NCBI GenBank assembly: GCA_003153505.1
Contig: PLZA01000044.1
Coordinates: 124,001 to 188,000 of the forward strand
Source of the DNA: Candidatus Dormiibacterota bacterium
GTDB taxonomy: Bacteria > Chloroflexota > Dormibacteria > Aeolococcales > Aeolococcaceae
Direction of reading: 5' to 3'
Length of the DNA: 64,000 bases
Positions 19,035 to 35,988 of this stretch are shown one piece after another. The notes below the pieces were generated by a model, which did not search any database, was not told the origin of the DNA, and saw nothing but the letters and a program-made list of their open reading frames with translations. Position 1 is the stretch's first letter. Every line of letters begins with the position of its first letter. The position numbers and the translations under genes are program-made.

Positions 19035-19928
19035 GATGAGGACGGCGGCTGTGGTGGGATGGCTCCATCGAGGGCGATCTGTGCCGGCTCGCCGTGGGTC
19101 TTTCGTGGTCGAGCCATCTGCGTGCAACGACGGTGGTCGAGCGTCAGAAGTGCTTCCTGGACCCGGGTTGCGCGTCACCCGCAACCTAGGTCGCGACAAA
19201 CGAATTTCGTCACGCGGGCACTCGGCCGAGGGCCACTGCGAGTTCGGGATTTGATTCCGAGCTTTGAAAAGATTCGGTAGAGGTGCGTACTAATCGACCA
19301 GATACTTTGAAACGGCTGCGGTGCCGTGACGTCGTTCGCGTCGGTTGACGACGTTGCAGCTTGCCGTCGACAAAGTGCTCGCGGGCGAGTAACAACGTGG
19401 GCTGACACTCGAACCCTTGTTGGCGTGCCAGTTGGTGCACAGCCGGGTCACCAGTTTGAACGCGTGGGAGAGCGCCTTCTCGCGCAACGCGCATGCGCTC
19501 GGTGGAGCTTCGAAGGCGCCAGCGCGCGCGGCCCCCAGTGACCGCAGCCTCCGGCGCCGGAGCGTCGCGCTCCAGCTCGGCCAGCACGCTGCGGTCGGCC
19601 TCGCCAAGCTTTGCTGGCTCAGGCGATCCCAGGCCTCGGCGATCACCGCTCCATCGCGTCGCGCGAGACGGTGAATCCGCAACTGTCTGATCCGCACGTC
19701 GATCAACTGCTGCATCGTCGCCGCCGACCTTGCGTAGGAGCTCTCCGTCGCCAGCCAAAGCGTCGCAGGGGCGATGCCCAGGCTGAAGTGCTCGCCGGCG
19801 TCGAGACCCAACCGCAAGCACTGACGGAGTGGCAGAAAGCGTGATCGAGCTTGCCAGCACAACGTACCCCGGGGTTCAACCAGCGTCACTGGACGGAGGT
19901 GCAGGCGGACCGCGAGGGCATAGAGATA
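19035..19928. other. No supported gene; upstream region and uncharacterised DNA
   Basis: About 890 bases. Near 19108 the word GAGCCATCTG recurs near 31258 upstream of SSB, which may mark a shared promoter. Overlapping open frames at 19210-19889 (minus) give Arg/Ser/Ala-rich translations without ribosome sites or family features. They could be a decayed gene, but nothing is recognised. Confidence 0.35.
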
Positions 19929-19957
19929 TTGTGGTCCCTACGCCATTTGGATATACT
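19929..19957 (+). promoter_or_regulatory. Sigma-70-type promoter of the propeller gene
   Basis: TTGTGG (19929-19934), a 17-bp spacer and TATACT (19952-19957) precede the gene. An AGGAGG ribosome site lies at 19964-19969 before ATG 19978, giving a very short leader. Confidence 0.65.
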
Positions 19958-19977
19958 CATGAGAGGAGGGTGTAAAC

Positions 19978-21084
19978 ATGGGACCGATCGACCGACCCAT
20001 CGCAAAGGCGTGGCGCGGATGCGCACGACTGGTCACGGCGACCAGCATGTTCGTAATTCTCGGCTTCGCGCCTGCCGCTTCAGCCTCCGCGGCAGCCGTT
20101 TCGTGGCACGTTGTCCCGAGTCCCACGACGGCGAACGACGTCACATGCGTGGCGGCCAATGACTGCTGGGCCGTCGGGTCGTCGATCATGCACAACGTTG
20201 GGGCCGGCTGGGTCACGGTCAGCAGTCCCACCCCAACTGGCTCAATCAATAGCCACCTTGATGGCGTGACCTGTGTGAGCAACACGGACTGTTGGGCTGC
20301 GGGTGGCTATCTGGCCCCTCCTTTCAATGAGCTGACCTTGGTCGAGCACTACGACGGTGTGAATTGGAGCATCGTCAGTAGCCCATCACCTGACCCGAAT
20401 AACAGCCAATTCCTCAACATTAGGTGCACCAACGCAACAAATTGTTGGGCGGTGGGGATGACCGTCACCAGCGCCGGAGACGAGTATCCCCTCATCGAGC
20501 AATACACCCAAAGCAGCTGGGTTGTCGCCAGTAACCCGAGCGGCACCAATCGCGGGGCGTTGCGAGATGTCGCCTGTTTGAATGCAACTGGCGTCTGTTG
20601 GGCTGTCGGCTGGCTCGACAACCCGGCGAATCAGCCCTTGGTTGAGTACAACCCGGGTACGGGGTGGGTCGTGATCCCCAGCCCTGCGGCTTCCACTGGC
20701 CAGTTGTACGGTGTGACGTGCATGAGCGCCACTAATTGTTGGGCGGTGGGCTCGTTTGACAGCTCAGCTCGCAGCACCACTTCGACGTTCACCGAGCGCT
20801 ACGACGGAAGTCGTTGGAGCATCGTCCCAAGCCCGAATGTCGGCAGTCGCCATCCGAACTGGCTCAACGACGTGAGCTGTACCTCTGCCTCTGACTGTTG
20901 GGCGGTCGGAAGCGACGGAATCTCCGACCAGAAGACGCTGATCGAGCACTTTGCCGGCGGTCGGTGGCGAACAGTTGCGAGCCCAACGGGAGCGTCGAGT
21001 GGGAGCCTCGTTGGCATCAAGTGCGTTGCCAGATTTGATTGCTGGGCTGTGGGCGACGATAATCCCATCCTGCAGTACACTTAG
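19978..21084 (+). CDS. Secreted seven-repeat CWAVG beta-propeller-like protein
   Basis: A 368-residue exported protein. The N-terminus has basic residues, then a hydrophobic segment (VTATSMFVILGFAPAASASAAA) that fits a cleavable signal peptide. The mature chain consists of about seven repeats of roughly 45-50 residues. Each carries a Cys-x5-Cys-Trp-Ala-Val/Ala-Gly core (NDCWAVG, TDCWAAG, TNCWAVG, GVCWAVG, TNCWAVG, SDCWAVG, FDCWAVG) and a W-x-V/I-V-x-SP strand. Paired cysteines within each repeat suggest disulfides outside the cell. Seven equal repeats suggest a seven-bladed propeller. Function unknown; similar proteins are usually annotated only as hypothetical in high-GC soil bacteria. It is cargo beside an IS481 copy. 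Confidence 0.8.
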   Translation: MGPIDRPIAKAWRGCARLVTATSMFVILGFAPAASASAAAVSWHVVPSPTTANDVTCVAANDCWAVGSSIMHNVGAGWVTVSSPTPTGSINSHLDGVTCVSNTDCWAAGGYLAPPFNELTLVEHYDGVNWSIVSSPSPDPNNSQFLNIRCTNATNCWAVGMTVTSAGDEYPLIEQYTQSSWVVASNPSGTNRGALRDVACLNATGVCWAVGWLDNPANQPLVEYNPGTGWVVIPSPAASTGQLYGVTCMSATNCWAVGSFDSSARSTTSTFTERYDGSRWSIVPSPNVGSRHPNWLNDVSCTSASDCWAVGSDGISDQKTLIEHFAGGRWRTVASPTGASSGSLVGIKCVARFDCWAVGDDNPILQYT

Positions 21085-21182
21085 CAGGGAGCTGAACCGC
21101 GGGCCGCGATGAGCGCTTGGGTGGGCGTTGGCCCGCTCGCATGGTTGTGGTGTCGGCGATCGCGGACAGAATTCGGACCTGT

Positions 21183-22252
21183 GGCCCCCTAGGTGTAAGC
21201 GTTCGCGAGGTTGGTAACACTCACGCCGCCTGCAGTTGAGCGAGACGGGTCCACGGGCTGAGTCCTCCCAGGGCTCGGTGAGGCCGGTGCTGGTTGTACC
21301 ACTGGAGGAAGTGAGCGAGGCCGTCACGGCGTTGCTCGGAGCTGTGGAAGACCTCGAGATAGAGGCACTCGCTGAGCACAGTGCGGATCCAGCGCTCCGC
21401 CTTGCCATTGGTCTGCGGGTGGTACGGCCGGGTGAAGCGGTGTCGGAGTCCGACGACACGGCACACCCTGCGCCACGCTTTGGAGCGGTACGGGCTGCCA
21501 TTGTCGGTGAGCAGGCGGTCCACGGTCATGCCCTGCTCACGAAACCAGCGCACCGCGCGAATTAGGAAGTGGGCCGCGGTCCGGCCCCGCTCGTCGCTGA
21601 GCATCTCCGCATACACCAGCCGGCTGCACTCGTCGATCGCCATGTGGAGCACTTCCCAGCCCACGTGCCGGTGCCGTTGCCCCTGGTCGCCGTGGATGCG
21701 ATGCCCAGGCCCACCAACGATCCGGCCGAGCTTCTTGGTGTCGCAGTGCACCATCGCGCCTGGGGTGTCGAACTCGTAGCGAATCACCGGCGGCCGTTCC
21801 GCTTTGTCGCGCCGCAGTCCCTGGCGCCGAATCACCCGGTGCACTGTGGCCGCAGGCACGCCGCACAGCACGGCCAGGCGGTCGGGCCCCCACCCGGTCT
21901 GTCGGCGCAGCGCCGCGATCGCCGCCTCCTGAACCAGTGACAGCCGCTGGGGCGAGCTCCGTGGCCGGCTGCTGCGATCGTGCAGCCCGAGCTTGCCCTG
22001 AGCGTCCCAGCGCGGTCGCCAGCGGTAGTACCAGCGCCGCGACACCCGAAAGGCGAGACACGCGGCCGAGACCGTCATGCCCGCTTCGACCGCCGCAAAG
22101 ACCTGCGCTCGCCCGCCTGTTGTCAGCCGTGCATTGGGGTGAGAATGCATCCCAGAGCCCTCCTCGGTTGGGTTGGTGTTAGCAACCTCACCTTGCCGAG
22201 TTCAGGGCTCCTTTTGTGTCACCAACCTCGCGAGAGATCTCACCTAGGGGCC
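21183..22252 (-). mobile_element. IS481-family insertion sequence with terminal inverted repeats
   Basis: A transposase gene is bracketed by inverted repeats of about 38 bp. The left end begins GGCCCCCTAGGTG (from 21183) and the right end, read inward, CGGCCCCTAGGTG (from about 22252). Both continue to TCGCGAGGTTGGT and end before the gene. The flanks do not show an obvious target duplication. Confidence 0.8.
21221..22150 (-). CDS. IS481-family transposase (DDE integrase fold)
   Basis: The 309-residue transposase has a helix-turn-helix N-terminus (GGRAQVFAAVEAGMTVSAACLAFRVSRRWYYRW, with a second wHTH around residues 60-110) and an rve integrase core. Catalytic acids are visible at MVHCDTKKLG (first Asp), LLTDNGSPYRS (second Asp) and HPQTNGKAERWIR (Glu). 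This order matches IS481 elements, which lack the orfA of IS3. It is intact and flanked by matching terminal repeats, so it is potentially active. Confidence 0.93.
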   Translation of the reverse strand: MHSHPNARLTTGGRAQVFAAVEAGMTVSAACLAFRVSRRWYYRWRPRWDAQGKLGLHDRSSRPRSSPQRLSLVQEAAIAALRRQTGWGPDRLAVLCGVPAATVHRVIRRQGLRRDKAERPPVIRYEFDTPGAMVHCDTKKLGRIVGGPGHRIHGDQGQRHRHVGWEVLHMAIDECSRLVYAEMLSDERGRTAAHFLIRAVRWFREQGMTVDRLLTDNGSPYRSKAWRRVCRVVGLRHRFTRPYHPQTNGKAERWIRTVLSECLYLEVFHSSEQRRDGLAHFLQWYNQHRPHRALGGLSPWTRLAQLQAA

Positions 22253-22572
22253 GGTCCTCGGGGCATGTTCCCCATTTTCACGCCCCGGTTTGGCCAGCAG
22301 TTTCGACATTCGCACACGTAATACATCGTGACCGCGAGCGCCGCCCAGGGTTGATGGCGGTCAACCCCGATGCATCAGAGTTTGGCCCTCCGCGGCGGGG
22401 GTACCTCGGTACTGCGACCTTCGTGGCCCGGTAGCTGTTGATAACGCCTCCGTGTCGTAGGCCGCGTCCGCGGACACAGTTCGCCGGCGGCTTGCACCTT
22501 GGCGATGCAGCATGCGCAGTGTAATGTCCCGCTCCGCGCGACCGTCTGGCGGCGCGACCTGCACATCGACGA

Positions 22573-22929
22573 CTAGGCTTCGCCGGTGGGCACGGCACGG
22601 GCCGCGGCCTCGGCGTCGATGAGGTCCGACTTTCCCCGGTTGCGACGGTGCTGGCGTGACGGCGGCGACACCTCGACCACCCGCACACCTCGCGCTTGCA
22701 GCAGCGCGCAGAGGGCGCTGCCGTACGAACCGGTGCCTTCCATTGCGACCACGGCCACGCTGCCGTGCTCGAGCGCCCAGGCCACCAAACGCTGGTACCC
22801 GGCTGGTGACGCTGGAATGCTGATGTCGTCGCAGCGGTGACCCAACTGGTGAACTGCGACGGCGACGTGCACGAGATCGTGGGTGCCAACGCCAATGACC
22901 ATCTGCTGTGCCAAGCTCTTTCCAGTCAC
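22573..22929 (-). pseudogene. IS110-family transposase, N-terminal fragment
   Basis: The 118 codons read VIGVGTHDLVHVAVAVHQLG, VVAMEGTGSYGSALCALLQARG and NRGKSDLIDAEAAARAV, the DEDD RuvC-like start of an IS110 transposase. The expected first Asp of the DEDD set is replaced (GVGTHD instead of GxDxxK). The frame ends where the full protein should continue for about 280 residues. Downstream DNA to 22253 shows only scattered frames, so this is a truncated, inactive copy unrelated in sequence to the intact one at 28.9-30.2 kb. Confidence 0.75.
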
Positions 22930-23151
22930 CGGTTCCTCCGAATGGGTGGCGACGTCGCCAGCGGCCGGGCAGACCTGTGACGGGGACGTCAGGGGTCAAG
23001 CTCATATCAAGTCACGGCCCGTTTGGCGGCGCCCCGTGGCCAGAACCCTCGCTCGTGGACACATCCCGGGAAAGGCACCTCCGGCGCCAGGCGGTTCACG
23101 AGTCACACGAGCGAGGGCGGGACTCCCATATCCTCACAGGCGGTTCACGGT

Positions 23152-25485
23152 CTAGGGACAGGTTACCGAAGTGAAGTTGTTGAGCGCGATCACTTGGGCC
23201 AACGTGAGGGTGCTATATCCGGGGTGGGCGTCGTCGGCCGAGAAACCGGACGGGAGTTCGACGTGCAGGGCAAAGTAGCCCCCGCTAGCCGTCGACTCGG
23301 CGTTCTCGATTACTTGGCAAAGCGTCCCAGTCCCGGTCGAGGAGAAGTGCGAGGATGTGTCTGTCGCAGTCTGGTAGGCCAGAGGAATGCCGGCTGTGAC
23401 GAAGTTATCTCCTGTGCCCACGCTTCCGTTGTACATCTCTTGGTCCTCGACTGACAGGCTGCCGCTCAGCGAGTTGTTCTCGATGCTTTGCGAAGCGCTG
23501 TAGTTGCGGATCTGTTGTATGGCTTCCGCCGTATCAGTTGGGCTAGCGCAACCGCTATCACTCGAGTCGAGGCAGATGCTGTGGTCGTCTGAGTCGGGTC
23601 CGCCAGTGTCCGGGGCAAGGACCTGATCGTAAGGGTTAAAGGTGGAGCCGACCGGTGTCAGTTTCCAGACGGTGGGAATCCACTCAGCGTCGGCTATCGT
23701 CGCCGCGACATCGCTCGAGGCGCTCCAGCACTGCGATGAGCACGAGCCTCCGTTTGCCGTAGTCATATTGAGGCGGAGGCCGCAGACCGTGGACGGAGGA
23801 CCTATCGAGTACGCGGCCAGCCCCGAGGGCTCAGAGGGAGACCAGGTGCCGGTTAGAGTGTTGGAAGTGTTGGAGGTGACGGTGAAATCGTACGTCACGG
23901 GCCAGGTGGCGCTTCCGGCCGTCGCCACGTAGTTCGCCCATTGATTGGTCGCCCAGGACTTGCTGGTGTCCTGGATTGTGGTCGAGCCGAGAGTGACCGT
24001 TCCACCGCTGCCTGAGTCGTAAGTGCAGGCCAGCCCTCCCGCGGACTCGGGTGCGTCGTTGACCTGACGTAGGTACGGCTCATCGTAGATCGTGGCGTTA
24101 CGGGACGCAACTATCTCACCGATCTCGGGCGCCGTGTCGTACTTGGAGGCAAGCCTCGTCATGAGGTCCTGCCAGTCGGTATTGAAGGCACTCTTCCAGA
24201 ACTGCGGGCAGTTTCCAGCCTCGCCGTTCTGGTCGATGTCGCGGCAGGGGAAAGTCGTCCCGGCAGCATATGCGGGCGTGTCGATGCCAGCCATTACGCG
24301 AACCTTGAGTACCTGCTTGATGCCCCCAGCCGGGCAGTTGGTTGCCAGATTTGTGTTCCACCCAGTGGTGGGATCATTGAGTTCCTTGATCGCAGTGTCG
24401 ATCGGGTTGTTGCTCGTTATGGTGCCGCCGAAGCTGGTCAGGAGCTCGTTCCAGCCAACGCCGTTGGCAAGTCGATCGTTGCCCTGCACCACGTAGCCAG
24501 CCATCGCGCATCGGATGGCGTTCGCCCCGTTGGCACCGCAGCTTGTGGAGCAGGACGGAAAGTTCGCCCCGTTTCGATTTAACAACCCGCGGATGAAACC
24601 CTTGGTCGCGGATCCGCTCCCGGCGAAGAAGACGGTGATGCCAATCTCGATCTTGCTTACATTGAAGGTCGGGGTTTCTGAGTCGATCGAAGAAGTCGAC
24701 GGGTTCAGGTGATAATCCCCCCCTCCGTGCAGCTTGGTGTTGGAACCATACCAACTTCCCTGGGTGAAGCTCCCGCTCTTGGTTTCGGTAACGGCTGCGG
24801 CCGTAGCGTCGTATTCGGTAAGGGCGGTGACAGTTATGCCACCCGAGCTCGCCGGGTTGACCCCAGTTGCGCCACTGCACGAGGTTTCCAGAGGCGCGGT
24901 GGACGGCGACATGCCACACCACGCGCCGGGAACAATCTGGACGCTGCTGTAACCGTTGCTCTGACCTTGCCCAACGACGCTGACCTGGGGAGGGTTGTCG
25001 AGAGCCACTCCCGAGAACTCTTCAACCGAGGCGACCATTGCTGTCGCGCTGCTGTTCGTAACTGTTGCTACGGCGTCGTTACCAACTGTCACCATGAACC
25101 AGACTTCGGCTTCGACCAAATCGCTACCCGTTTGGTAACCGGTTCCGAAGTACCACCAACACCCCGGCACCGGACCGGTCCGAACCGAGCACAAACTGGT
25201 GGACCAGTTCGCGTTGCCACCGCCAAAGCTGCTGACTCGAAGCACGAGGAGGTCGTTGGCTGGGACCTTACCGCTCACCAGCTCGTCTGAATGAAGTGCC
25301 GGTGTGATCGAGCCGCTGCCAGCGCTACCAGTCCATGTGTATTCGGTTGGCTGCGACGCGGAGACCTTGGCGATACTGGCAGCCTGAGCTTCGATCGGCT
25401 TCAGTGGTGCCTCTGGCACGATGACCATCCCGATGGTCAGTGCCAAGAGGGCCGCTAGAACGAATGGGACCTTGCGATTTATCAT
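23152..25485 (-). CDS. Large secreted protein, N-terminal beta domain and possible glycoside-hydrolase-like core
   Basis: The 777-residue product starts at ATG 25485 (GAGGTGAGC upstream) rather than at 25638, because a signal peptide begins there: INRKVPFVLAALLALTIGMVIV then a cleavage region near EAQAAS. Residues about 40-200 form a beta-sandwich-like part (TYTWTGSAGSGS, AVWFMVTVGND, ASVEEFSGVALDNPP). The middle part (ATKGFIRGLLNR, VRVMAGIDTPAYAAGTTF, FWKSAFNTDWQDLMTRLASKYD) resembles TIM-barrel glycosidases by layout only. The catalytic acids cannot be fixed by eye. Several Cys pairs support an extracellular location. It follows a frameshifted secreted gene on the same strand. Confidence 0.7.
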   Translation of the reverse strand: MINRKVPFVLAALLALTIGMVIVPEAPLKPIEAQAASIAKVSASQPTEYTWTGSAGSGSITPALHSDELVSGKVPANDLLVLRVSSFGGGNANWSTSLCSVRTGPVPGCWWYFGTGYQTGSDLVEAEVWFMVTVGNDAVATVTNSSATAMVASVEEFSGVALDNPPQVSVVGQGQSNGYSSVQIVPGAWCGMSPSTAPLETSCSGATGVNPASSGGITVTALTEYDATAAAVTETKSGSFTQGSWYGSNTKLHGGGDYHLNPSTSSIDSETPTFNVSKIEIGITVFFAGSGSATKGFIRGLLNRNGANFPSCSTSCGANGANAIRCAMAGYVVQGNDRLANGVGWNELLTSFGGTITSNNPIDTAIKELNDPTTGWNTNLATNCPAGGIKQVLKVRVMAGIDTPAYAAGTTFPCRDIDQNGEAGNCPQFWKSAFNTDWQDLMTRLASKYDTAPEIGEIVASRNATIYDEPYLRQVNDAPESAGGLACTYDSGSGGTVTLGSTTIQDTSKSWATNQWANYVATAGSATWPVTYDFTVTSNTSNTLTGTWSPSEPSGLAAYSIGPPSTVCGLRLNMTTANGGSCSSQCWSASSDVAATIADAEWIPTVWKLTPVGSTFNPYDQVLAPDTGGPDSDDHSICLDSSDSGCASPTDTAEAIQQIRNYSASQSIENNSLSGSLSVEDQEMYNGSVGTGDNFVTAGIPLAYQTATDTSSHFSSTGTGTLCQVIENAESTASGGYFALHVELPSGFSADDAHPGYSTLTLAQVIALNNFTSVTCP

Positions 25486-27014
25486 GTGCTCACCTCTGAA
25501 CAACCTTGTGGTCGGCAACCGGCGAGGTATGCCCTCGTGTGTGCGACGGACTGCGAAAAGCGCTTTCTCATCGTCGTGACGAAAAATGCGGACATGCGTA
25601 TCAACGTGCGGTTCCACCTCCTGCTCCAACCGGCCCAAGCGAGTGGTCCGATTCCACTTATTCGCGGGTTGTTAGACCTAGGCTGGTCAACGAGGTCTCT
25701 TCGGTGTACGCGGGCGCAACCACCCTGCCCGCCGTCATCGACCCACTCGACAACGCCGTACCCGCGCGCCACTCCAGGGGTGACCGTGTAAGTCTTGGTC
25801 GCGTTCATGAACACAGGAAGCTGCAGGTGCGCTGCGTCGGGCGTGGGACCGACCTGGCGGGACGCCGTCTCGGCGACGATGTAGTCGCCCGCCGCGTCGC
25901 AGGTCTGGCCGCTGACGGTGACGCAGATCCCGAAGTCGATCGGATCGATTCCCGATGCCATCGCCAAGGTCAGGTTGGCGGTCACGTACGTCAGCACGTT
26001 GACGGATGGGGTGAAACTCTGAGTCTCCGAGCCGATGGTCTGCCATGCGGTCCCGTCATCACCAGTCCCAAACGCGCGCGTTTGCACAGCGCTGGCGGCG
26101 GTACTCAGGAGTTCGCCGTCCGCGGTCGGTGTCATTTGCGCAATCACGCTCGTCAAGGAGTACCCGCCTTCCGTGCCACCGCTCGCTCCCGCGTCGATCG
26201 TGTGCGCACTCTCGGCCTGCCAGAAGATTCCCATCGTGTAGGTCGTGCTCGGGGTAAGGGTTGCCGTCGCCTCGACTAACGCGGCGATTGGCATCGCTAA
26301 GGCGGCCGCTCCACTCGTCTGCGCTGCAATGATGCTCTCGCCCGTCCTCGTGCAGGTGGCACTGAGCACGCTCGCGGCCGCTAAGCAGATGCCCATGTCG
26401 GCGTTTGCTTGGGGGGACACCGAGTACAGGTCGGCGCTCGCGGTCAGCAGGGTGCTGTGGTTGCCACTTCCCGCCGGCGTCGTGAAGCTCTTCTCAACCG
26501 TGCTATCCATCACGTGCCACGAGGTGCTGTTCGTCGAGAATTGCGTCGTGCCTGTGGAGGGCTGCGCGGCCACGAGGTTGTCCGCTGTTGGCGTAAGCAG
26601 GGCATTGAGCGTGGTCGGCGAGAAACCTGGACCATACGGTGGCACCGGATCTCCAGCCTCAAGGAACACGCCCGCTGGCTCGGCCGTCGCCGGTCGCCAC
26701 ATCAGCTCGAGCGTGTACGTCTGTCCCGCATTCATCGTCATGGCGTTTTGGACGTATACCGGATCCGGTGAACTGCCGCTGTACTCGCCCCCGTCCTTCC
26801 ACGCGACCACCATGCCGCCGACTGCGATGCCCACTTCCGTATTGAGTGTCGTTGAGCTCTCGACGTCAGCGAAGGCGGTGAGGACAGCTGTCGAAGTGAC
26901 AGACGGAGTCACCGAGAGCACGCGTTTGCTGGGATCCATCGCCTTCCACGGCGGAGGATCGTAGCGGTCGTATCCCCCTCCAAGCGATACATCTGCTTGC
27001 TGGAGGCGTTCCAA
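25482..27014 (-). CDS. Secreted repeat protein with two apparent frameshifts
   Basis: The open frame holds three copies of a domain of about 150 residues, each with a T-W/SW-x-x-M/I start and TxSxxVLTxxADL strands (PPWKAMDPSKRVL, TSWHVMDSTVEKSF, TAWQTIGSETQSF). The expected signal peptide is in another frame: ATG 27193 begins NGQSTRSNHRGVARRH, then LAVLVALASSLSGVFLF and a cleavage region AHADTAQ. A one-base shift between about 26.95 and 27.01 kb would join it. Near 25.73 kb the frame turns into an Arg-rich, unrelated tail to 25482, while shifting one base restores a plausible domain end and a TAA at 25658-25660. It is either a pseudogene or carries two sequencing errors. Confidence 0.65.
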   Translation of the reverse strand: MERLQQADVSLGGGYDRYDPPPWKAMDPSKRVLSVTPSVTSTAVLTAFADVESSTTLNTEVGIAVGGMVVAWKDGGEYSGSSPDPVYVQNAMTMNAGQTYTLELMWRPATAEPAGVFLEAGDPVPPYGPGFSPTTLNALLTPTADNLVAAQPSTGTTQFSTNSTSWHVMDSTVEKSFTTPAGSGNHSTLLTASADLYSVSPQANADMGICLAAASVLSATCTRTGESIIAAQTSGAAALAMPIAALVEATATLTPSTTYTMGIFWQAESAHTIDAGASGGTEGGYSLTSVIAQMTPTADGELLSTAASAVQTRAFGTGDDGTAWQTIGSETQSFTPSVNVLTYVTANLTLAMASGIDPIDFGICVTVSGQTCDAAGDYIVAETASRQVGPTPDAAHLQLPVFMNATKTYTVTPGVARGYGVVEWVDDGGQGGCARVHRRDLVDQPRSNNPRISGIGPLAWAGWSRRWNRTLIRMSAFFVTTMRKRFSQSVAHTRAYLAGCRPQGCSEVST

Positions 27015-27193
27015 CTCGTGCGTTGCGCCGTGTCCGCATGTGCGACGAGTGCGGGACTGAACAGGAACACGCCACTGAGTGAGGAGGCGAGCGCTACCAA
27101 GACCGCTAGCGGTCGCCGTCCCTGCAGGAATCGCGCGGATGCGTGACGCCGAGCAACACCACGATGGTTTGACCGGGTGCTCTGCCCGTTCAT

Positions 27194-27595
27194 TACAGCT
27201 GCGCAGTCAGATTGACGATGGACGCAGACACAGAGACAGCCCTCCCAGTAGCCAAGGCTCCAATGCAGCACTCCGTCGCAACGGAGTTTCAGTGCCGTCA
27301 TGCTAGGCACGCAAACGCCTGGTATGTGGTGATGGTGTAACAAGCGCTGCTGCACCTAAAGCAGGCTCGGCCAGTGCGACAGGGGAGCAGATGCTCGTGC
27401 ACTTCGCATCGATGCAAGCGGCTCAAATTACCGTGGGTTGACTGCCGGTGGTTCCCGCCGTGCATTCGACGCTGGCCAACATGCGAACGTGAGCGGGTCG
27501 ATCAGCCGATCTCCGCATCGTGTAGCGAACCGTGCGATCGCGTGGCGTTCCTCGGACGACTCATCATCATCCATTCCATTCGTGTGGAGGTGTAG
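27194..27595. other. Divergent intergenic region
   Basis: About 400 bases between the two divergent exported-protein genes. It presumably holds their promoters, but no clear -35/-10 pair or repeat was found. Confidence 0.3.
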
Positions 27596-28273
27596 ATGAC
27601 CCGTGTTTCCGATTCGACGCCCAGAGCTGTGCGTCGCGCGACCACGCGCCTACCTTTCCATCGAACGCCTGCGAGGGCGCTCGTAGACCTCACATGTATC
27701 CTGCTCCTCCCCTTGGTGCTCGCCGGCTGCGCGAGGAGCGGTTCGCACGCCAACCTAAGCCGGCCGAGCAGTTCGCTGTTCATATCGACCCCATTACCGG
27801 ACCCGACGCCGACCCCAGTGGCGGCGCACACCGTCCCGGTACCAACGTGCTGCACGGCTTCAACCCCGACGAGCTGGAGCACACCGACGCTCATTGCCAA
27901 TGGTATCTACGGCGCCGCCGATCCCACCAACAGATTGGCGGCGACCTGGCAGGTGATCGGTTCGGCACGGAGTTGCCCGCTGGAGCCGGCCGCAATGCTC
28001 GGAAGCCTCGTTTCTCCAACCCAGCTCTCCGGCGATGTCATCACTGCCGTTGATGCGATCACCGTGAACGGCAAGCATGCCACCGTCTACGTGACCGTCC
28101 CCAGCACCGGGGTACCGCGCGGCTATCAGTATCTGAACGCCGACGTGGTTGTCGGAACCATGTGCGTCGATCTCGGCGGCGCGGAATACGGGGTTGCGAA
28201 TGCCTCGAATGTGCATGCGCTGCTCCAGATCCTCGCCACTACGCGTCCCGTCACGTCCCCGGAGCGTCCGTAA
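27596..28273 (+). CDS. Putative lipoprotein of unknown function
   Basis: A 225-residue exported protein. A long basic N-terminus precedes a hydrophobic segment LTCILLLPLVLAGC with a perfect lipobox ending at a cysteine near residue 46. A Pro/Ser/Thr linker follows (PLPDPTPTPVAAHTVPVP). The folded part is about 130 residues (TWQVIGSARSCPLEP, DVITAVDAITVNGKHATVYVTVPS, VVVGTMCVDLGGAEYGV). ATG 27596 has GGAGG 7 nt upstream. No family is recognised. It stands alone between a frameshifted secreted gene and a dead oxidoreductase. Confidence 0.72.
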   Translation: MTRVSDSTPRAVRRATTRLPFHRTPARALVDLTCILLLPLVLAGCARSGSHANLSRPSSSLFISTPLPDPTPTPVAAHTVPVPTCCTASTPTSWSTPTLIANGIYGAADPTNRLAATWQVIGSARSCPLEPAAMLGSLVSPTQLSGDVITAVDAITVNGKHATVYVTVPSTGVPRGYQYLNADVVVGTMCVDLGGAEYGVANASNVHALLQILATTRPVTSPERP

Positions 28274-28320
28274 AACTTCGACGCTGCTCGGCTCACACGG
28301 TTACGCCTCCACAGCTGATC

Positions 28321-28682
28321 GACGTCGATGTCAGCTGGAAGAGAACCGAGGTTGCGTGTTTCGACCGCGTTGTACTCGGCAAGGGAGCCGTTGCGAGTCC
28401 AGGGAGTCATGCCGAACACGCGCTGACCGACGGTCAGGCCGGTGGTTCCGTGCCCCAGTTCGACGACGACTCCCGACAGCTCGTGGCCAGGCAGGCTCGG
28501 CGTCCGGTCGTGGCCATCCCGGTCGGTCCACGTCGACGGCCACTCCAGCTCGCCTGGGGTGAACCCCGCGGCATGCACCCGCACGATGACGTCGTTCTGA
28601 GTGGCGTCGGGGTAGAGATTTCCGTCAAAGAGTGTCCGCCGACACCCGCGGCGCGATCTCGAAGGGTGATGGCTTGCGTGAC
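28321..28682 (-). pseudogene. NAD(P)-dependent alcohol dehydrogenase/quinone oxidoreductase remnant
   Basis: The N-terminal GroES-like domain of a medium-chain oxidoreductase is readable: QAITLRDRAAGVGGHSLTEIS in one frame, then after a one-base shift near 28.61 kb DVIVRVHAAGFTPGELEWPS, RTPSLPGHELSGVVVELG and LTVGQRVFGMTPW. It stops at LPADIDVDQL near 28321, where the Rossmann domain should follow but unrelated DNA begins. A frameshift plus truncation mark it as dead, probably cut by IS activity. Confidence 0.75.
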
Positions 28683-28936
28683 ACCTCCTTCGGCGTCGGG
28701 ATTGTTGAAGCTTGCCGGCGGGATCGAGGCCGAGATCGGGTGATTATCCGGTCGCCTCATGCCTCCGCGCAATTTTCCATTCCGGCCTGACCACCGATTG
28801 TGATCCCGCGTTAGACAGGAGACTGGCGACGAGTGGACATGCGTTCACTTGCGACTGAACTCTCGGCGCTCAGTTGCGAACCCGCGCACTTGGTCGGCCG
28901 ACCAGGATTTCGCCCGGGCGTTTCGCTGAGGATGTA

Positions 28937-30160
28937 TTAGATCCCATAAGTTCTTGTCAAGCTGATCCGGCCGCTGCCATGCGCCGGGTCGAAATCCTTG
29001 CCGCCGCGCCACACGCCCCAGACGATGGCCAGTGCTTTGCTCATGTAGTGACCAAGGGCGTTCATCGCTGACTTGCCCGCGGCCCGCTTGCGAGCGTAGT
29101 GGGCGCGGAGGATCGGGTTGTGCTGCACGCCGACCACGGCCATCCGGTATGCGGCCGCGCGAAGGTAGGCGTTGCCGGTCTTGGCCATGGTCCAACTCGT
29201 CTCCGGGTTCGCACCTTTCTTCCCTGAGCTCTGCTCCTTGGGATGCACCCCCGCGTAGGCGAGTAACTGGTCGACATCGGTGAAGCGCCAGATGTCACCG
29301 ATCTCGGCCATGAGCGTGGCCGCGGTGGAGGGACCCACCCCGGGGATGGAGAGCAGCCGCTGCGACACTTCGCCATCGAGCAGGGAGGCGATCCGGGTGT
29401 CAGCGCTGGCGATCTGCTGGTCGAGCAGGTCGTGCTGGGCGATCAGCAGGCGCATCTCGAACCCCACTTGCTGCTCGAGTTCCGGCGCCGCCACCGAGGT
29501 CTGAGCCAGCTGCTTGAGCTGGCCGGCCTTGAGCGGTCCGATCGCACGGCCACCACTGCCCGGACGCTTGAGCCGACCCAGGCGGTCCTGGTGCATGCGC
29601 GCCACTGCTGCTGCGGTCGGCGCGTGGCGAAGCACCGCCAGGGCGCTGACGCAGGTGGGGTCGTCCCAGACGTCGCGCAGCTCGGGAAAGCCGATGTCCA
29701 CCAACCGCTGAATGCGCTGGCAGACCTGTGCCTGCTCACGCACCAGGCGCATCGCAAACCGCGCCGCCTCCTTGAGCTCGGCCCCCACCAGGGGCTCGCT
29801 GATCCGCGGCTGGTCGTGCGTTCCCAACGCCGCCAGTGTGCGCGCGTCAGCCGGGTCGCTCTTGCTCCGCTGCAGCCGGCTCTTGGCGAAGTACTTGGCC
29901 TGCAACGGATTCACCACCGCCACCGGATACCCCTGCCGGCGCAGATGACTGGCCAGATTGAACCAGTAATGGCCGCTCGACTCCATCACCACCACGTCGA
30001 TCGGCGCTCCCTGCTGCACCATCCACGCGTCTAGTGCAGCGAAGCCGCCGCGCTGGGTCGTGATGTTGAGCACCTTCCGCTCCGCCTCGCGCTCACCCTG
30101 GCGACACACCGCCGCCGCGCACTTGTATGCCCCTACGTCGATTCCCACCGCCAGACTCAT
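28937..30160 (-). CDS. IS110-family transposase, full length
   Basis: The 407-residue DEDD transposase starts at ATG 30160 (GGAGGTGCGT upstream). The RuvC-like domain has GIDVGAYK, VVVMESSGHYWFNLASHL and KSDPADARTLAAL. A coiled middle region and a C-terminal Transposase_20 domain follow (LLSIPGVGPSTAATLMAEIGDIWRF, LAYAGVHPKEQSSGKKG). IS110 elements encode a bridge RNA next to the transposase that guides recombination between target and donor. The flanks on both sides (28773-28936 and 30161-30300) could hold it but were not resolved. No terminal inverted repeat is expected for this family. Confidence 0.93.
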   Translation of the reverse strand: MSLAVGIDVGAYKCAAAVCRQGEREAERKVLNITTQRGGFAALDAWMVQQGAPIDVVVMESSGHYWFNLASHLRRQGYPVAVVNPLQAKYFAKSRLQRSKSDPADARTLAALGTHDQPRISEPLVGAELKEAARFAMRLVREQAQVCQRIQRLVDIGFPELRDVWDDPTCVSALAVLRHAPTAAAVARMHQDRLGRLKRPGSGGRAIGPLKAGQLKQLAQTSVAAPELEQQVGFEMRLLIAQHDLLDQQIASADTRIASLLDGEVSQRLLSIPGVGPSTAATLMAEIGDIWRFTDVDQLLAYAGVHPKEQSSGKKGANPETSWTMAKTGNAYLRAAAYRMAVVGVQHNPILRAHYARKRAAGKSAMNALGHYMSKALAIVWGVWRGGKDFDPAHGSGRISLTRTYGI

Positions 30161-30645
30161 ACGCACCTCCTGTGTCGGGTTGCGACCTCAGGGGTCCTCG
30201 CCTCGCTTCGCCACCGCGTGGGCTGATGCTCCATCACCGGTCATGCCGTCGGATCCCAATCACCGCTCGAAGACGAAGCACGAGGGCCGGTCACTAATAC
30301 CATCGGTCGCGGCCGGATAGCGAAGCGCCGGTCTCCCCGTCAAGGTCAGTTTCCGTGCGATTCTGACCCCGCCAGGAGATATATCAGCGATATACGAGGT
30401 TGTCGAGGTTGGTGTCCCGCGGTGCCCCAGAGCAGAACGCCATGGTCGTCGGTCCACACATGACGGCGGAATGGTGGGCGGCACGACGAGGTCACGCTCG
30501 CGCGGCCGAGGTCGGCGGGCTTCAGAACGTACTGCGCAGCCAGGGAGCTGAGCGCGTTTATGTGACCGACAGCCACTTTTCGCGCGCGGCACTCGAGGCC
30601 GACAGGGTATGAGGAACGGGGCCGGTCTCCCGGCCCCATTCTCAG
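30161..30645. other. IS110 flank and intergenic region before SSB
   Basis: About 485 bases. The part next to the transposase start may hold the IS110 noncoding (bridge RNA) region. Open frames at 30346-30639 (minus) and 30400-30612 (plus) have no ribosome site or recognisable content. Confidence 0.3.
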
Positions 30646-31038
30646 CTAGGCCTCGGCCTCGCCGGTGGGTGCGGGTCCGAGCAACTGGAAGCTCTCGACC
30701 ACGAGGTCGAGCTGCTTGACGCGGTGCCCCTCAACGTCGCGGATCCTCGAGGTGATGCGCCCCTCGACGTGAATCTCGCGACCCTTGCGGCCGTACTGGC
30801 CGATGATCTCGGCGGCCTTCTCCCACGCCACCACATCGTGGAACTCGGCGAAGCCGTTGACGTTGGTGGCGATGCCCAGGTTGACGACGGCCTTGCCGCT
30901 CTGGGTAAACCGCTGCTCCGGGTCGGCCGTCATCCGTCCGAGGATGCGGAAGTGGTTGATCCCGTACGACCGGGACTTCGCCGGGGTGTCGGTGACGTCG
31001 CCGTCGACGTCGGCTGCGAGGTCGGGCTTCCGGGCCAT
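30646..31038 (-). CDS. ssb: Single-stranded DNA-binding protein (element-encoded)
   Basis: A 130-residue SSB with the OB-fold order NHFRILGRMTADPEQRFTQSGKAVVNLGIATN, FHDVVAWEKAAEIIGQYGRKGREIHVEGRITS and KQLDLVVESFQLLG. The start ATG 31038 is chosen over an upstream open extension because GGAGGACACATGC precedes it. The C-terminus ends in an acidic GEAEA instead of the DDDIPF tip of housekeeping SSBs, common for plasmid copies. It would coat transferred strands on entry. A hairpin leader and an ATCAACC-CACGGAGG context link its control to ParB, ardC and two other genes. Confidence 0.92.
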   Translation of the reverse strand: MARKPDLAADVDGDVTDTPAKSRSYGINHFRILGRMTADPEQRFTQSGKAVVNLGIATNVNGFAEFHDVVAWEKAAEIIGQYGRKGREIHVEGRITSRIRDVEGHRVKQLDLVVESFQLLGPAPTGEAEA

Positions 31039-31138: not shown

Positions 31139-31474
31139 GCAGTGAAGGCCGCGCGGTGCTCGAATGCCATGAGAGCGATCAACAGCTCACCGATAAGGGG
31201 GACACCTCGTGGTCGCGCGGAGGTTCGGCCTCGTGGTCGAGGGCAGCGGGTCGGTTAGAGCCATCTGTGGTACGAACGGCCCGGTGATCTAAATGCCCAA
31301 TGCGGCGAACGGATAAGGATGCGAATGTGCAGCCGCCGTGGGCCGCTGGTGGGGAATGCGCGGGAACGCGAGCATCCGAATGGTTGCAGTGGCTTGTGCG
31401 CTGACGCGAGTGCGGAGCCCTCGCTGAGCGGCGTGGGAGCGGCCACCGCGCGGCAGCCGCCCCCGGGCGGGTGG

Positions 31475-31921
31475 CTACGAAGCGCCCACGCGCTCAATGT
31501 CGGGGTTGGCGTTGGCGTCTTCCTCGCCGACGGTGATGTCCTGCTCACGAATCACGTCGAGCTCCAACTCCGTGGGCTGGTACCCCAGTCCCGTCAGGTA
31601 GCGGAAATGCTCGGCGACGAGTGCGCGCTGGTCGGGCGAGATGTACTCCCGTCCCGAGTAGACCTCGGCGCGCCCCATGGCCACGGCGAGCGCCACCTGA
31701 GCCAGCTCTCCCGGGTTTGCGGCCACTCGAGCGGTGAGCGACCGCGCATGGCCGTGATACCCGTCACTGCCGCCGGTATGGCCGAGCAGCTCGCAGGCCA
31801 CCGATGCAACCGCCTCGTCCACATCGAGCACCGAGATGCGCCGTGCGTGGTGGTTCGCAGCAGCAGTGTCTTCGACGCTCTGCAGGTGCCGCGTGAGCAA
31901 CGCACGGCGTTCTGCGAGCGC
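31475..31921 (-). pseudogene. C-terminal continuation of the ParB-like gene after an in-frame TGA
   Basis: The codons directly after the ParB stop continue in the same frame without interruption to 31475 (ALAERRALLTRHLQSVEDTAAANHH, VLDVDEAVASVACELLGHTGG, QVALAVAMGRAEVYSGREYISPDQR). The helix running up to the stop (AERAAKRSERQAQR) continues smoothly after it. The TGA is therefore most simply a CGA-to-TGA nonsense change in a protein of about 457 residues. An internal TTG (31900) could start a separate 141-residue product, but no ribosome site is seen. Confidence 0.65.
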
Positions 31922-32848
31922 TCACCGCTGCGCCTGACGCTCGCTGCGTTTGGCAGCACGCTCGGCCTTCGCATCGGCGGGGGCCTGGATGCCCGGCACG
32001 ACTCCGACATGACGCTGCACGTCGATGCACACGAAGACGATGTCTCCGGTGTGCTCCTCGATGTATGCCGCGTGGCACGCCTCCCGGGCGTGCTTCGCCT
32101 GCGTGAGTGGGATGCATCCCCAGCCGTTGCCCAGGCGCCGCACTCTCGCGCGCGGCGAGAAGCTCTCGCGCGGACGTTCGATGATGGGAACGCCGCGCTG
32201 CTCGAGCTCCACTCGGCTCGACTCAGTCTTGCGGTCCAGCTCACGCGCGTGCAGCTCGTGCTGCACCGCGGAGGTGAGGCTCGATCCGTCGCGGGTGTTG
32301 TGCAGCGCACGGGTGAGCCTTTCCGGGGTGTCGGCGAGCTGCGTGAGCAACAGCGCCGTCTGGTAGTCGATCGCCCCGCCGGCAAGTTCGCGACGCACCT
32401 TCCTGGGGAGGCTCAGCAGGGACGTGTGGTCGCTGACCTGTTGTGCCGACGTCCCGGCGAGGGCGGCAACCTCTTCACTCGCGATGCCGAGATCGAGCAG
32501 CTCCTGATAGGCGGCGGCGGCCTCAAGCGGCTCCAGATCCTTGCGGTTCAGGTTCTCCATAGCCATCGCCTTGCGACTCTCGACGTCGGCGTAGCCGCGC
32601 ACCACCGCCGGGACGGTGCTCAGTCCGGCGAGTCTCGCGGCGGCGAGGCGTCGCTGCCCGGCGACGAGCTCGTAGCCCCCGGCGTCGCGCTGACGCACGG
32701 TGATTGGCTGCACCAACCCGATGGTGCGGATGGACTCGGCGAGCCCATTGAGATCGCCGAGATCCTGGCGATGGTTACCGGGCGGGATGGTGATGTCGTC
32801 GAGGGACACCTCGATCAGCTCGGCGATCTGGACGTGCGACGCGCTCAT
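31922..32848 (-). CDS. parB: ParB/Spo0J-family protein, truncated by an in-frame TGA
   Basis: The 308-residue product has the ParB N-terminal nuclease-like/CTPase domain (SLDDITIPPGNHRQDLGDLNGLAESIRTIGLVQPITV, GYELVAGQRRLAAARLAGL, ENLNRKDLEPLEAAAAYQELL) and a helix-turn-helix (ASEEVAALAGTSAQQVSDHTSLLSLP). The GERR-type motif is GQRR. Such proteins load on DNA for segregation or act as KorB-like regulators. No ParA gene is adjacent; the only one lies 17 kb away with its own RHH partner, so a regulatory role is as likely. ATG 32848 follows GGAGGAGATGCC. The same frame continues after the TGA to 31475. Confidence 0.85.
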   Translation of the reverse strand: MSASHVQIAELIEVSLDDITIPPGNHRQDLGDLNGLAESIRTIGLVQPITVRQRDAGGYELVAGQRRLAAARLAGLSTVPAVVRGYADVESRKAMAMENLNRKDLEPLEAAAAYQELLDLGIASEEVAALAGTSAQQVSDHTSLLSLPRKVRRELAGGAIDYQTALLLTQLADTPERLTRALHNTRDGSSLTSAVQHELHARELDRKTESSRVELEQRGVPIIERPRESFSPRARVRRLGNGWGCIPLTQAKHAREACHAAYIEEHTGDIVFVCIDVQRHVGVVPGIQAPADAKAERAAKRSERQAQR

Positions 32849-32904
32849 GGCATCTCCTCCGGTGGGGTTGATCCGACGCCCACCCGCAAGGCGCGCCGCG
32901 AGCG

Positions 32905-32950
32905 CGCGGCAAGGCCGAGCCGCAGGCGAGCATCAGGCAGCCTTGCCGCG
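32905..32950 (-). promoter_or_regulatory. Leader hairpin before parB
   Basis: CGCGGCAAGGC (32905-32915) pairs perfectly over 11 bp with GCCTTGCCGCG (32940-32950), 57-102 nt upstream of ATG 32848. The loop carries GAGCCGCAGGCGAG, the word also found in the JAMM leader. The following ribosome context is ATCAACCCCACCGGAGGAG. Confidence 0.65.
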
Positions 32951-33307
32951 ACCGAGCGAGCGGCGCAGCCAGGGTCCGGGGTGGCGGATCCTCACCGGAG
33001 GTCGATGCACCGCCCGCCTCATGCAGGAAAAGTGAGACCCCCGGCGCGGCCAGGGGTCTCGTCAGGAAGGGATTTGGGTTTCGAGATATCGGCACCTGCG
33101 CACGCCGGGGCCGGCCGCCATTACTGCGCGATGTTGCGGAATGGTACGTCAGCAGTGATCGTTCTTGTTCGAGCGAACATCAAGTGCGTAGGCCATCGGT
33201 GCGCTCTTCACGCCGGCGCAGCGGTCGGCCATCGGAGGCATAACCGAGTTGCCGAGTCTGGAGACCGCGGCGCTCGCCGGCGGAAGCCCTTGAGTTGCTC
33301 TGTGCGG
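32951..33307. other. Intergenic region upstream of parB
   Basis: About 360 bases with no supported gene. It contains the palindrome TGTTCG-AG-CGAACA (33166-33179), a possible operator for a dimeric regulator; its owner is unknown. Confidence 0.35.
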
Positions 33308-34615
33308 CTACGGCAGCAGGATGATTCCGCTTCCGTCGCTGAGTCGCCGGGTGATAGCGTCGTCGCGGTCGGTGTCGGCCACGTGGATGGCGATCCGTCC
33401 GTCGCGCATGCGGAGGTCCGCGGTGAGCCTCGACGCGAGCACAGCAACGAGCGCGGGGCTGGGCGCGGCAGCCCCGGTGAAGCGGCCCGGGAATGGTGGT
33501 GCAGCGACAGCATCGGCGGCGCTCGGGTATCCCTCGTCGAACGCCGCCGGGGTCACGCGGTGCGCGGGGTCGCCGAGCAGCAGCGCGATCACACCCGCCA
33601 GACCATCGATGCGGGTCGCGAAGGGCTGCGGTGCATCGAGGAGATCGCGCTCGTGCTCCAGGCCACGGATGACGTCGCGCGCCCTGTCGGCGGTGCCCTC
33701 CGGGGGGATGGCGATCCACACGGTGCCCTCATCGGCACGGGCGCGCGCGCTTCGGGCGCGCTGGATGACCCCTGGGGAACTCGACGCCGCATCCACCAGC
33801 CGGCTCCAGCGCTCGGGGAGCCGCGACCCCGGAGGCAACTGGGTCTCCTCGTCCCATGCCGGCGATGCCGCATCGACGACGCCATCGCGGATCGCCGCCA
33901 GGGGAAGCTGCGGTCGCGGCGATGGGTCGACCGACAGGATGGCGGCCACCCGGCCGACTCCGTCGAAGGCGGGGGAGAGGGAGACGCCGCCGAGCGCGTC
34001 CATGGCCAGCCTGACGAAGCCGAGTCCCCAGCGGTCGCGGTCGGCCTGATGGCGCGCGGTGCTGATGCCCTGGGGCGGAAGCTCGCCGTGCCAGCGGACG
34101 CGAAACATCGGTCCGGGATCGATGTCGATGGTGACCGCGGTCGCGTCGTCGTGGCGGCGGGCGTTGATCACCAACTGGAGCAACGCCAGCGCCAGCACCG
34201 GCGCATCCGGAACCGCCCCGGGGGTGTGCGCGCCGATGGTGACGCCGTGGGCGCTGACCGTCGACAGCAGTGCCGCGAGGTTGTCAAGGACATCAGCGGT
34301 GCTGCCCCCGTGCAGGTCGGGGATCCCGGCTACTAGCGCAACGCTGCTTGCCAGCGCACCGAGGCGGAGCTTTTGTGCGCCCGCGCATGCCTGGGCACCC
34401 TCGCGCATCGCGGCCACCAGCTCGGTCAGCAGTACAGCGATGTCGGCATCCTGCTCGTCGCATCCGACGGCGAGCGACGCGGCGGGCAGGCGGTAGACGA
34501 CGGTCCCGGGGCCACCCCCGGCCCACTCCGCAGAGCTGGCGAGCAGCGCCCCGTCACGGTCGAAGAGCGCCACCGGAAGGGGCAGCGCGGCGACGTCAGC
34601 GGCGCTGAGCCGCAC
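33308..34615 (-). CDS. Atypical histidine-kinase-like ATPase
   Basis: The 435-residue product starts at GTG 34615, overlapping the end of the response-regulator gene by about 20 bases; the frame is open further upstream but is there only a shadow. The middle has a GHKL-type ATPase signature: LALALLQLVINARRHDDATAV (N box) and DRWGLGFVRLAMDALGGVSLS (G box). No H-box/DHp helix pair with a phosphorylatable histidine is visible, and no sensor or membrane segment. About 180 residues of unknown fold follow, ending in a TDRDDAITRRLSDGSGIILLP segment. It likely works with the adjacent regulator, perhaps without classical phosphotransfer. Confidence 0.65.
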   Translation of the reverse strand: MRLSAADVAALPLPVALFDRDGALLASSAEWAGGGPGTVVYRLPAASLAVGCDEQDADIAVLLTELVAAMREGAQACAGAQKLRLGALASSVALVAGIPDLHGGSTADVLDNLAALLSTVSAHGVTIGAHTPGAVPDAPVLALALLQLVINARRHDDATAVTIDIDPGPMFRVRWHGELPPQGISTARHQADRDRWGLGFVRLAMDALGGVSLSPAFDGVGRVAAILSVDPSPRPQLPLAAIRDGVVDAASPAWDEETQLPPGSRLPERWSRLVDAASSSPGVIQRARSARARADEGTVWIAIPPEGTADRARDVIRGLEHERDLLDAPQPFATRIDGLAGVIALLLGDPAHRVTPAAFDEGYPSAADAVAAPPFPGRFTGAAAPSPALVAVLASRLTADLRMRDGRIAIHVADTDRDDAITRRLSDGSGIILLP

Positions 34616-35255
34616 GACCGGACCGCGTCCCGGTGACCTCGAGGTGATAGAAGCCGGCCCCTTCGGATTCCAGCGAGACCGTGGATTCAACGTCGCGCAG
34701 CCAGACCCCGAAGCGATACATGGCCATGTACGGCGTCGTGTGCCGCTTTGCCATGGTCGCTTGCGGATAGCCGCAGAGCAGCCGCACTCCCCACTTGTTC
34801 TGATAGCGGGTGCCGCTGGGGACGTGGACCACGGTGCCGCGATCGACCCGGAGATCACCCACCTTGCGCTGCAGGAGCTGGCGAACGCGTACGAGCAGGC
34901 TGGTGAGTCCCTGGTGCTTGTCGTGCGGGATCGCGCCCGGGTGCGCGACCGCGATCCGATTCTGCAAATCGAGGTCACTGCCTGCGCGCAGTGCGAAGAC
35001 GATGGTGAAGGTCTCGGGATGATCCCGGGCCAGGGTGCGAAGCACGTTCTCGGCGGTCCGCTCCGCATCCGGCGACAGGCGCATGTTCCAGTCGAGGATC
35101 GCCAGGACCGGGTCGTTGGCGCGGAGCAGGCGGATCGCCTGTTGCGGAGAGCGGGTTGCCAAGGTGTCGAGCCCGCAGGCCTGGGTGACGGTGACAATTT
35201 CCTCGAGTTCGGTCGGGTTGTCCTCGAGCACCAGGACATCGGCTCGCTGCGTCAC
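34596..35255 (-). CDS. Response regulator with unrecognised output domain
   Basis: The 219-residue protein has a receiver domain (residues 5-125) with acidic pair Glu11/Asp12 (VLVLEDN), phosphoacceptor Asp55 (LAILDWNM) and Lys113 (HDKHQ). The C-terminal part (about 130-219: LRVDRGTVVHVPSGTRYQNKWGVRLLCGYP in parts, MYRFGVWLRDVESTVSLE) is not an obvious winged-helix, LuxR or LytTR domain. GTG 35255 is the start. It lies between ParB and the transfer operon, transcribed away from the latter. It is a natural candidate for controlling the tandem-repeat promoters, but no direct evidence exists. Confidence 0.75.
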   Translation of the reverse strand: MTQRADVLVLEDNPTELEEIVTVTQACGLDTLATRSPQQAIRLLRANDPVLAILDWNMRLSPDAERTAENVLRTLARDHPETFTIVFALRAGSDLDLQNRIAVAHPGAIPHDKHQGLTSLLVRVRQLLQRKVGDLRVDRGTVVHVPSGTRYQNKWGVRLLCGYPQATMAKRHTTPYMAMYRFGVWLRDVESTVSLESEGAGFYHLEVTGTRSGRAAQRR

Positions 35256-35533: not shown

Positions 35534-35716
35534 ATGCACATCGTGCGGTTCACCGCCGACGTCTCGGCCATCCGGCAGTTGCGGCACCGGCAACCCCTCC
35601 AGCCGGCCCACGTGACCACTGCGCCGCAGCAGCCGCCTGCGGGTGACCCGTCGCGCTCTGGCGGTGGGCCCACGATGTGCACCGACGACACCGTTGCCCA
35701 GGACGCCCGGGGGTGA
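35534..35716 (+). CDS. Small basic protein, first gene of the transfer operon
   Basis: The 60-residue product starts where transcription from promoter C is predicted to begin, so it is probably read from a leaderless message. It is His/Gln/Pro-rich (RQLRHRQPLQPAHVTTAPQQPP) with no recognised domain. Its TGA overlaps the GTG of the next gene (GTGA, 35713-35716), which argues that it is translated. It may serve mainly to deliver ribosomes to the next gene. Confidence 0.55.
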   Translation: MHIVRFTADVSAIRQLRHRQPLQPAHVTTAPQQPPAGDPSRSGGGPTMCTDDTVAQDARG

Positions 35717-35988
35717 TCGCATCCATCCGGGCGCTGCTTGCCGATAGCAGCTCCGGCCTGGCCGAGCTCTTCTATGCGCATTTCCTCGTGCCCTTCGCCG
35801 ACGTCGCCCAGGTGCTCGTGTTTGTCGCCATGATCGCCACGGCCCTGCAGCGCGGGCTGGTCCAGCAGGACGAGCACTGGGGCAACGCCATCCTGCGCCC
35901 GGTGGGCATCGGCCTCGCCGGCCTCGGCGTGATCGAGGTGTGCAAGCTGGCCGCGAGCGCCATGCTCTCCGGCTCGCTGAGTCTGTAG
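35713..35988 (+). CDS. Small membrane protein of the transfer apparatus
   Basis: A 91-residue protein with two hydrophobic segments: FADVAQVLVFVAMIATALQ (about 28-46) and ILRPVGIGLAGLGVIEVCKLAASAML (about 59-84). These are joined by a short polar loop RGLVQQDEHWGN. Size, topology and position before a VirB6/TrbL-like gene resemble the VirB2/VirB3 class of small transfer proteins, but the sequence is not diagnostic. Translation begins at GTG 35713 within a 4-nt overlap. Confidence 0.6.
   Translation: MIASIRALLADSSSGLAELFYAHFLVPFADVAQVLVFVAMIATALQRGLVQQDEHWGNAILRPVGIGLAGLGVIEVCKLAASAMLSGSLSL

Follow-up and report, generated by a model that had tools for sequence, protein, structure and literature searches.

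ParB proteins studied so far dimerize constitutively through their C-terminal domain, as stated in PMC12260392. For P. aeruginosa ParB, PMC3542827 reports that removal of two or seven C-terminal residues impaired dimerization and DNA binding, and that the mutant lacking two residues resembled the null. Here, we analyzed a ParB-like gene in a stretch of DNA of 64,000 nucleotides (the window; G000:C13:124001-188000, from a draft genome of 74 contigs). The nearest named relatives of this DNA are MAGs of Candidatus Dormiibacterota that were obtained from palsa samples. The encoded protein resembles proteins of the ParB/Spo0J/Noc type (TIGR00180; PF02195 and PF17762) in having an N-terminal ParB domain and an HTH, recognized by clear profile and PDB sequence matches, and in being encoded on an element that also carries ParA. 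Unlike those proteins, its family has a long C-terminal part that lies outside the curated families (a Cys/His stretch and a helical domain), and a stop codon cuts this part off in the window. A Streptomyces plasmid ParB/RepB/Spo0J protein, WP_327258171.1 (NZ_CP108490.1; PHROG 6218), could be aligned over the full length, CHAA...VC stretch and C-terminal helices included; it differs in being 546 residues long, uninterrupted and about 26% identical to the L005 protein, an intact homolog of the window ParB. Both proteins match phrog_6218, the Dormibacterota protein over its N-terminal part only. The locus also resembles nonsense-mutation pseudogenes of mobile elements, with a stop in one copy, intact sister copies and other shared genes apparently intact, whereas its downstream frame has not yet decayed. 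Taken together, we estimate a probability of about 0.78 that a recent premature TGA truncates this ICE-borne ParB, with loss of the C-terminal helical domain.

The ParB-like gene lies on the minus strand, from an ATG at 32848 to 31475. Reading the frame from this ATG confirmed the claim of an earlier note, made from the sequence of the window, that the gene is cut by one in-frame TGA; this codon is at 31924-31922 and is preceded by 308 sense codons. The open run that the note described beyond it was also present, at 148 sense codons followed by TAG at 31477-31475; its count of 149 includes the last stop. The gene comprises the following features.

31925-32848, minus strand: N-terminal 308 codons, with ParB_N, ParB HTH, Cys/His stretch and the start of the last long helix (Pfam, TIGR00180, PDB)
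31922-31924, minus strand: in-frame TGA, CGG (Arg309) in 5/5 other copies (frame reading and codon comparison)
31475-31921, minus strand: C-terminal part left orphaned, predicted to be all-helical (148 codons plus TAG; searches and model)
31475-31900, minus strand: mechanical ORF from a TTG 7 codons past the TGA, a possible but unsupported restart

In DNA this rich in GC, the lack of stops over 148 codons is little evidence when taken alone: when the downstream part was shuffled by mononucleotides, 173 of 5000 shuffles were also open, and one frame antisense to it was open too. The downstream frame was counted as real coding sequence on the basis of homology, not of openness. GC content by codon position was 0.77/0.47/0.80 downstream and 0.73/0.47/0.85 upstream, indicating that the coding pattern was kept. 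An ORF of 1005 codons (31319-34336, plus strand) runs antisense to ParB and to the gene upstream of it; this ORF is probably a chance product of GC-rich DNA, since the ORF list of L039 contains nothing but shorter pieces opposite ParB.

The surrounding element encodes a TrwC-type (MOBF) relaxase with helicase, ParA, ArdC, IS481 and IS110 transposases, an SSB next to ParB, a VirB4-like ATPase and, farther on, type I restriction genes. From the relaxase, VirB4 ATPase, ParA, ParB, SSB and ArdC genes, we infer a conjugative, ICE-like element. Two further genes of the element were as follows.

15188-15961, minus strand: ParA-type ATPase, likely partner of ParB (PF13614, 6.1e-44), matched in L038-L040
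30646-31182, minus strand: SSB gene, next downstream of ParB (PF00436, 4.9e-20)

The element was found in multiple copies: G000 carries those of the window and C53, G303 carries C16 and C19 (same DNA as L005 and L006), and G415 carries two (same DNA as L004 and L007). Among the stops inspected in genes shared with L038-L040, only that of ParB interrupted a conserved gene body; all others were located in upstream extensions, and the ParA matches from L038, L039 and L040 contained none. The inspection covered the matches other than those of L040 with stops at window positions 14797-15228, 33302-34633, 35641-35985 and 36351-36091. Within these inspected matches, general decay of the window copy of the element was not seen. 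In C53 (L038), ParB residues 296-457 were in frame and without stops, and the first 295 codons were replaced by ~4.4 kb of unrelated DNA (G000:C53 5425-10546). Three ORFs from C53 6432-10384 had no Pfam match.

Other parts of the element showed further differences between copies. The region 19346-30381 spans ~11 kb in the window versus ~4.5 kb in the G303 copy (L039 5875-10352); it holds the IS481 and IS110 transposase genes and two long ORFs (23152-25638 and 25482-27014) that had no Pfam match. A gene at 17049-17501 (minus strand) was 98% identical to L039 over 151 residues and contains an HNHPS motif, which we take to be RadC-like. The 130 residues of SSB encoded at 30649-31038 (minus strand) were identical in L039 and L040, and the ParB beside it was 93% identical to the L039 copy. 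The identity of SSB reflects either unusually strong constraint or recent recombination.

Codon 309 was compared with five other copies (L004, L005, L006, L007 and C53), which come from two palsa MAGs and from the second copy of the same genome. Within the genus, all five had CGG (Arg) and none had TGA. TGA and CGG differ at two positions, and the change therefore probably went through an intermediate codon; the earlier proposal of one C-to-T change in CGA was not borne out. Of the four other copies with an N-terminal part, three (L004, L005 and L007) reached the same end at 457 residues, in agreement with the length of about 457 residues that the note had proposed to look for in homologs. The fourth, L006, was frameshifted by a one-base insertion near codon 345. 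Homologs ending at the same residue as the window frame, which according to the note would mark an ordinary stop, were absent, as 0/4 of these copies ended at residue 308. The downstream frame aligned ungapped to the intact copies, with protein identities of 95% (L004), 89% (L005) and 78% (L007). Because the relatives read through the site, the downstream frame was coding ancestrally, and the stop is specific to the window copy.

Homology was also observed outside the genus. G331, from another genus of the same family, encodes a 37% identical homolog that is open over residues 22-430, and the Streptomyces plasmid ParB continues past the stop site, where it aligned to the C-terminal helices. 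A search of the class with the C-terminal part matched 4 of 110 genomes (G000, G415, G303 and, weakly, G409 at 1.3e-5). The C-terminal part alone had no match in G331 at E 1e-4; its homology outside the genus thus rests on full-length alignments together with the weak G409 match. A search of viruses with the window protein found no relatives; a search with alignment A2 returned 7 loci, with matches within residues 8-222. Among plasmids, 229 records matched, and none of them covered 80% of the query. Two further ParB-like matches in the same genome were set aside. C71 (37%, no stop inside) was more distant, and C23 (one TGA inside) matched query residues 23-131 only and was taken to have no bearing on the stop.

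Pfam identified a ParB_N domain at residues 13-100 (PF02195, 6.6e-19, above cut-off) and a ParB HTH at residues 103-181 (PF17762, 2.9e-10), and the read-through protein matched TIGR00180 in NCBIfam (4e-32). The N-terminal part matched 11 PDB sequences, including Spo0J, ParB, Noc and KorB; with regard to possible CTP binding and hydrolysis, sequence comparison showed GQRR where the solved ParB 6sdk has GERR. A Cys/His stretch is located at about residues 250-282. The C-terminal part had no match in Pfam or NCBIfam, and its L005 counterpart had none in PHROGs or PDB sequences. The intact L005 protein was modeled with a mean pLDDT of 66 and a pTM of 0.38, values at which the model serves as a guide only. 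In this model, position 309 fell within a predicted long helix (293-324) that opens an all-helical C-terminal part (293-441), consistent with the earlier description of the stop as lying within a charged helix. Foldseek matches of the model at E < 0.001 were ParB, Spo0J, Noc and KorB chains.

We further examined selection on both sides of the stop. Omega was estimated by NG86 separately for residues 1-295 and 310-457. Over 10 pairs of copies with the N-terminal part, it ranged from 0.06 to 0.19 for residues 1-295 and from 0.15 to 0.52 for residues 310-457 (C53 excluded). The C-terminal part is less constrained than the N-terminal part even in intact copies, and its loss may therefore be tolerated. 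The downstream frame of the window contained no second stop and no frameshift, and its omega against L004 was 0.22 (bootstrap 0.06-0.54). Compared with all four relatives, window-only changes downstream numbered 4 synonymous against 1 nonsynonymous, for which a simple neutral model, with a nonsynonymous expectation of 0.707, gives P 0.028; when L006 was left out, they were 4 synonymous and 2 nonsynonymous (P 0.065). Small as they are, these counts argue against neutral decay over a long time but are compatible with a young stop. In the upstream part, there were 8 nonsynonymous and 14 synonymous window-only changes versus 10 and 35 pooled over the other copies (Fisher P 0.25), and no clear relaxation of the N-terminal part was seen in the window. 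The constraint on the downstream frame indicates that the stop is young or that the frame is still sometimes translated. Relaxed evolution past the stop, as expected of a pseudogene, was not seen, with 4 synonymous to 1-2 nonsynonymous window-only changes; we therefore call the gene truncated rather than a proven pseudogene, and the stop may be too young for such relaxation.

These findings suggest that an ancestral ParB-like gene of 457 codons acquired a TGA at codon 309 in the lineage of the window. Translation would most likely yield a protein of 308 residues in which the N-terminal ParB domain and the HTH are retained and which would end within the predicted first helix of the C-terminal helical domain. 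By analogy with the C-terminal domains of studied ParB proteins, the C-terminal part of this family may be a dimer domain, and the 308-residue product probably dimerizes poorly. Loss of the domain would probably weaken stable dimerization and partition, and some DNA binding or ParA contact may be retained. A literature search found no title on a truncated ICE ParB of this kind. If it is an ordinary nonsense allele, the TGA has little wider consequence. The annotation can be corrected in that a gene finder would give a 308-residue ParB and a hypothetical protein, and the family is about 457 residues long.

Alternatively, the C-terminal domain may be an optional module of ParB on a multi-copy ICE, on which a short ParB may persist. 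The C-terminal part evolves faster than the N-terminal part and was lost or broken in two of the five copies with an N-terminal part (the TGA of the window and the frameshift of L006), and a sixth copy, C53, keeps the C-terminal part alone. We regard this alternative as unlikely. If it holds, the short ParB may act as a DNA-binding regulator, or as a subunit that interferes among co-resident copies. Should the truncated form be maintained, the sister copies of one genome would provide a natural test of the extra C-terminal domain, with a bearing on ICE and plasmid ParB proteins.

An intact gene in the organism is unlikely; in that case, the TGA would be an error of the consensus or the assembly, or else a minority allele within a mixed population. 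The 74-contig draft contains a sister copy of the element, and related genomes contain others; several near-identical copies make confusion by the assembler possible. The codon also differs at two positions, although its immediate neighbors are the same in the window, L004 and L005. However, TGA was present in 0/5 fetched copies, so mixing among known copies cannot yield it, and two substitutions in one codon would be an unlikely sequencing error.

Readthrough of the TGA, or restart at the TTG at 31900, would produce two isoforms, one short and one long, or a C-terminal domain on its own; we consider this unlikely as well. Both the omega of 0.22 against L004 and the window-only counts are consistent with continued translation of the downstream frame, but a young stop explains this constraint equally well. 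The hairpin after the TGA showed some stability in the window (z -1.8) and less in four relatives (L004 +0.27, L005 -0.99, L006 -0.28, L007 -1.18), a weak signal. In programmed readthrough the stop is expected to be conserved together with the extension, whereas none of the five other copies has the stop. A UGA-suppressor tRNA was not found in the same genome: the anticodon was read in 43 of 45 tRNA-like matches and none was UCA, and the remaining two were weak matches with no ARAGORN call. The tRNA-Sec, found separately, was the sole UCA reader seen. No Shine-Dalgarno-like sequence was visible before TTG 31900. Low-level readthrough at the TGA is possible but unsupported. Of the alternatives given in the earlier note, truncation is the one favored, and no positive evidence was found for readthrough isoforms.

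Genome-wide recoding of TGA was ruled out. TGA ends 35 of the 57 ORFs of the window picked by GC pattern, which upholds both the statement of the note that TGA is an ordinary stop there and its exclusion of recoding. Absent from that account is the machinery of the host for decoding UGA as selenocysteine: the genome encodes tRNA-Sec(UCA), SelA (413 bits) and SelB (289 bits with neighbors). The three genes lie side by side at G000:C1:69288-72471, a complete selenocysteine set in a Dormibacterota-like genome; a literature search for 'Dormibacterota' and 'selenocysteine' together found no paper.

Complementation in trans, in which the window would supply the N-terminal part and the C53 copy a free C-terminal part, is very improbable. 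The two copies are complementary, as C53 holds residues 296-457 open and has its first 295 codons replaced, but the C53 fragment was the least constrained of all (omega 0.55-0.81 over residues 310-457 in five comparisons), no clear start signal was seen for it, and it looks like a remnant. Insertion of selenocysteine at the TGA is extremely improbable: the machinery is present and adjacent on contig C1, but the residue is Arg and not Cys in all close relatives, same-genus relatives have a sense codon at the site, and Rfam gave no match in the window at gathering score. For a SECIS hairpin downstream of the UGA, the signal seen was the z of -1.8 given above.

Two further features were observed upstream of ParB.

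33019-33210, minus strand: 192-bp segment upstream of ParB (blastn breakpoints)
33034-33060, minus strand: strong intrinsic-terminator-like hairpin, reading towards ParB (1 found, 0.1 expected; z -3.2)

The segment sits 170 bp before the ParB start and was missing from L007, L039 and L040, the three copies with collinear DNA at this point; L004 has different DNA upstream of ParB. A sigma-70 scan found no promoter, which says little for the host phylum. The segment may shield ParB from transcription that starts upstream, and it could represent a small RNA or else a repeated terminator module. A box like AAACY..TCCCTTCCTGA precedes the terminator hairpin and was found at 6 places in the genome in all. 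Segments similar to the insert were located at 6 other sites of the genome, on G000 contigs C16, C46, C5, C22 and C45 (L077-L082), and the L077 copy was alike to the 192-bp segment over about 158 columns.
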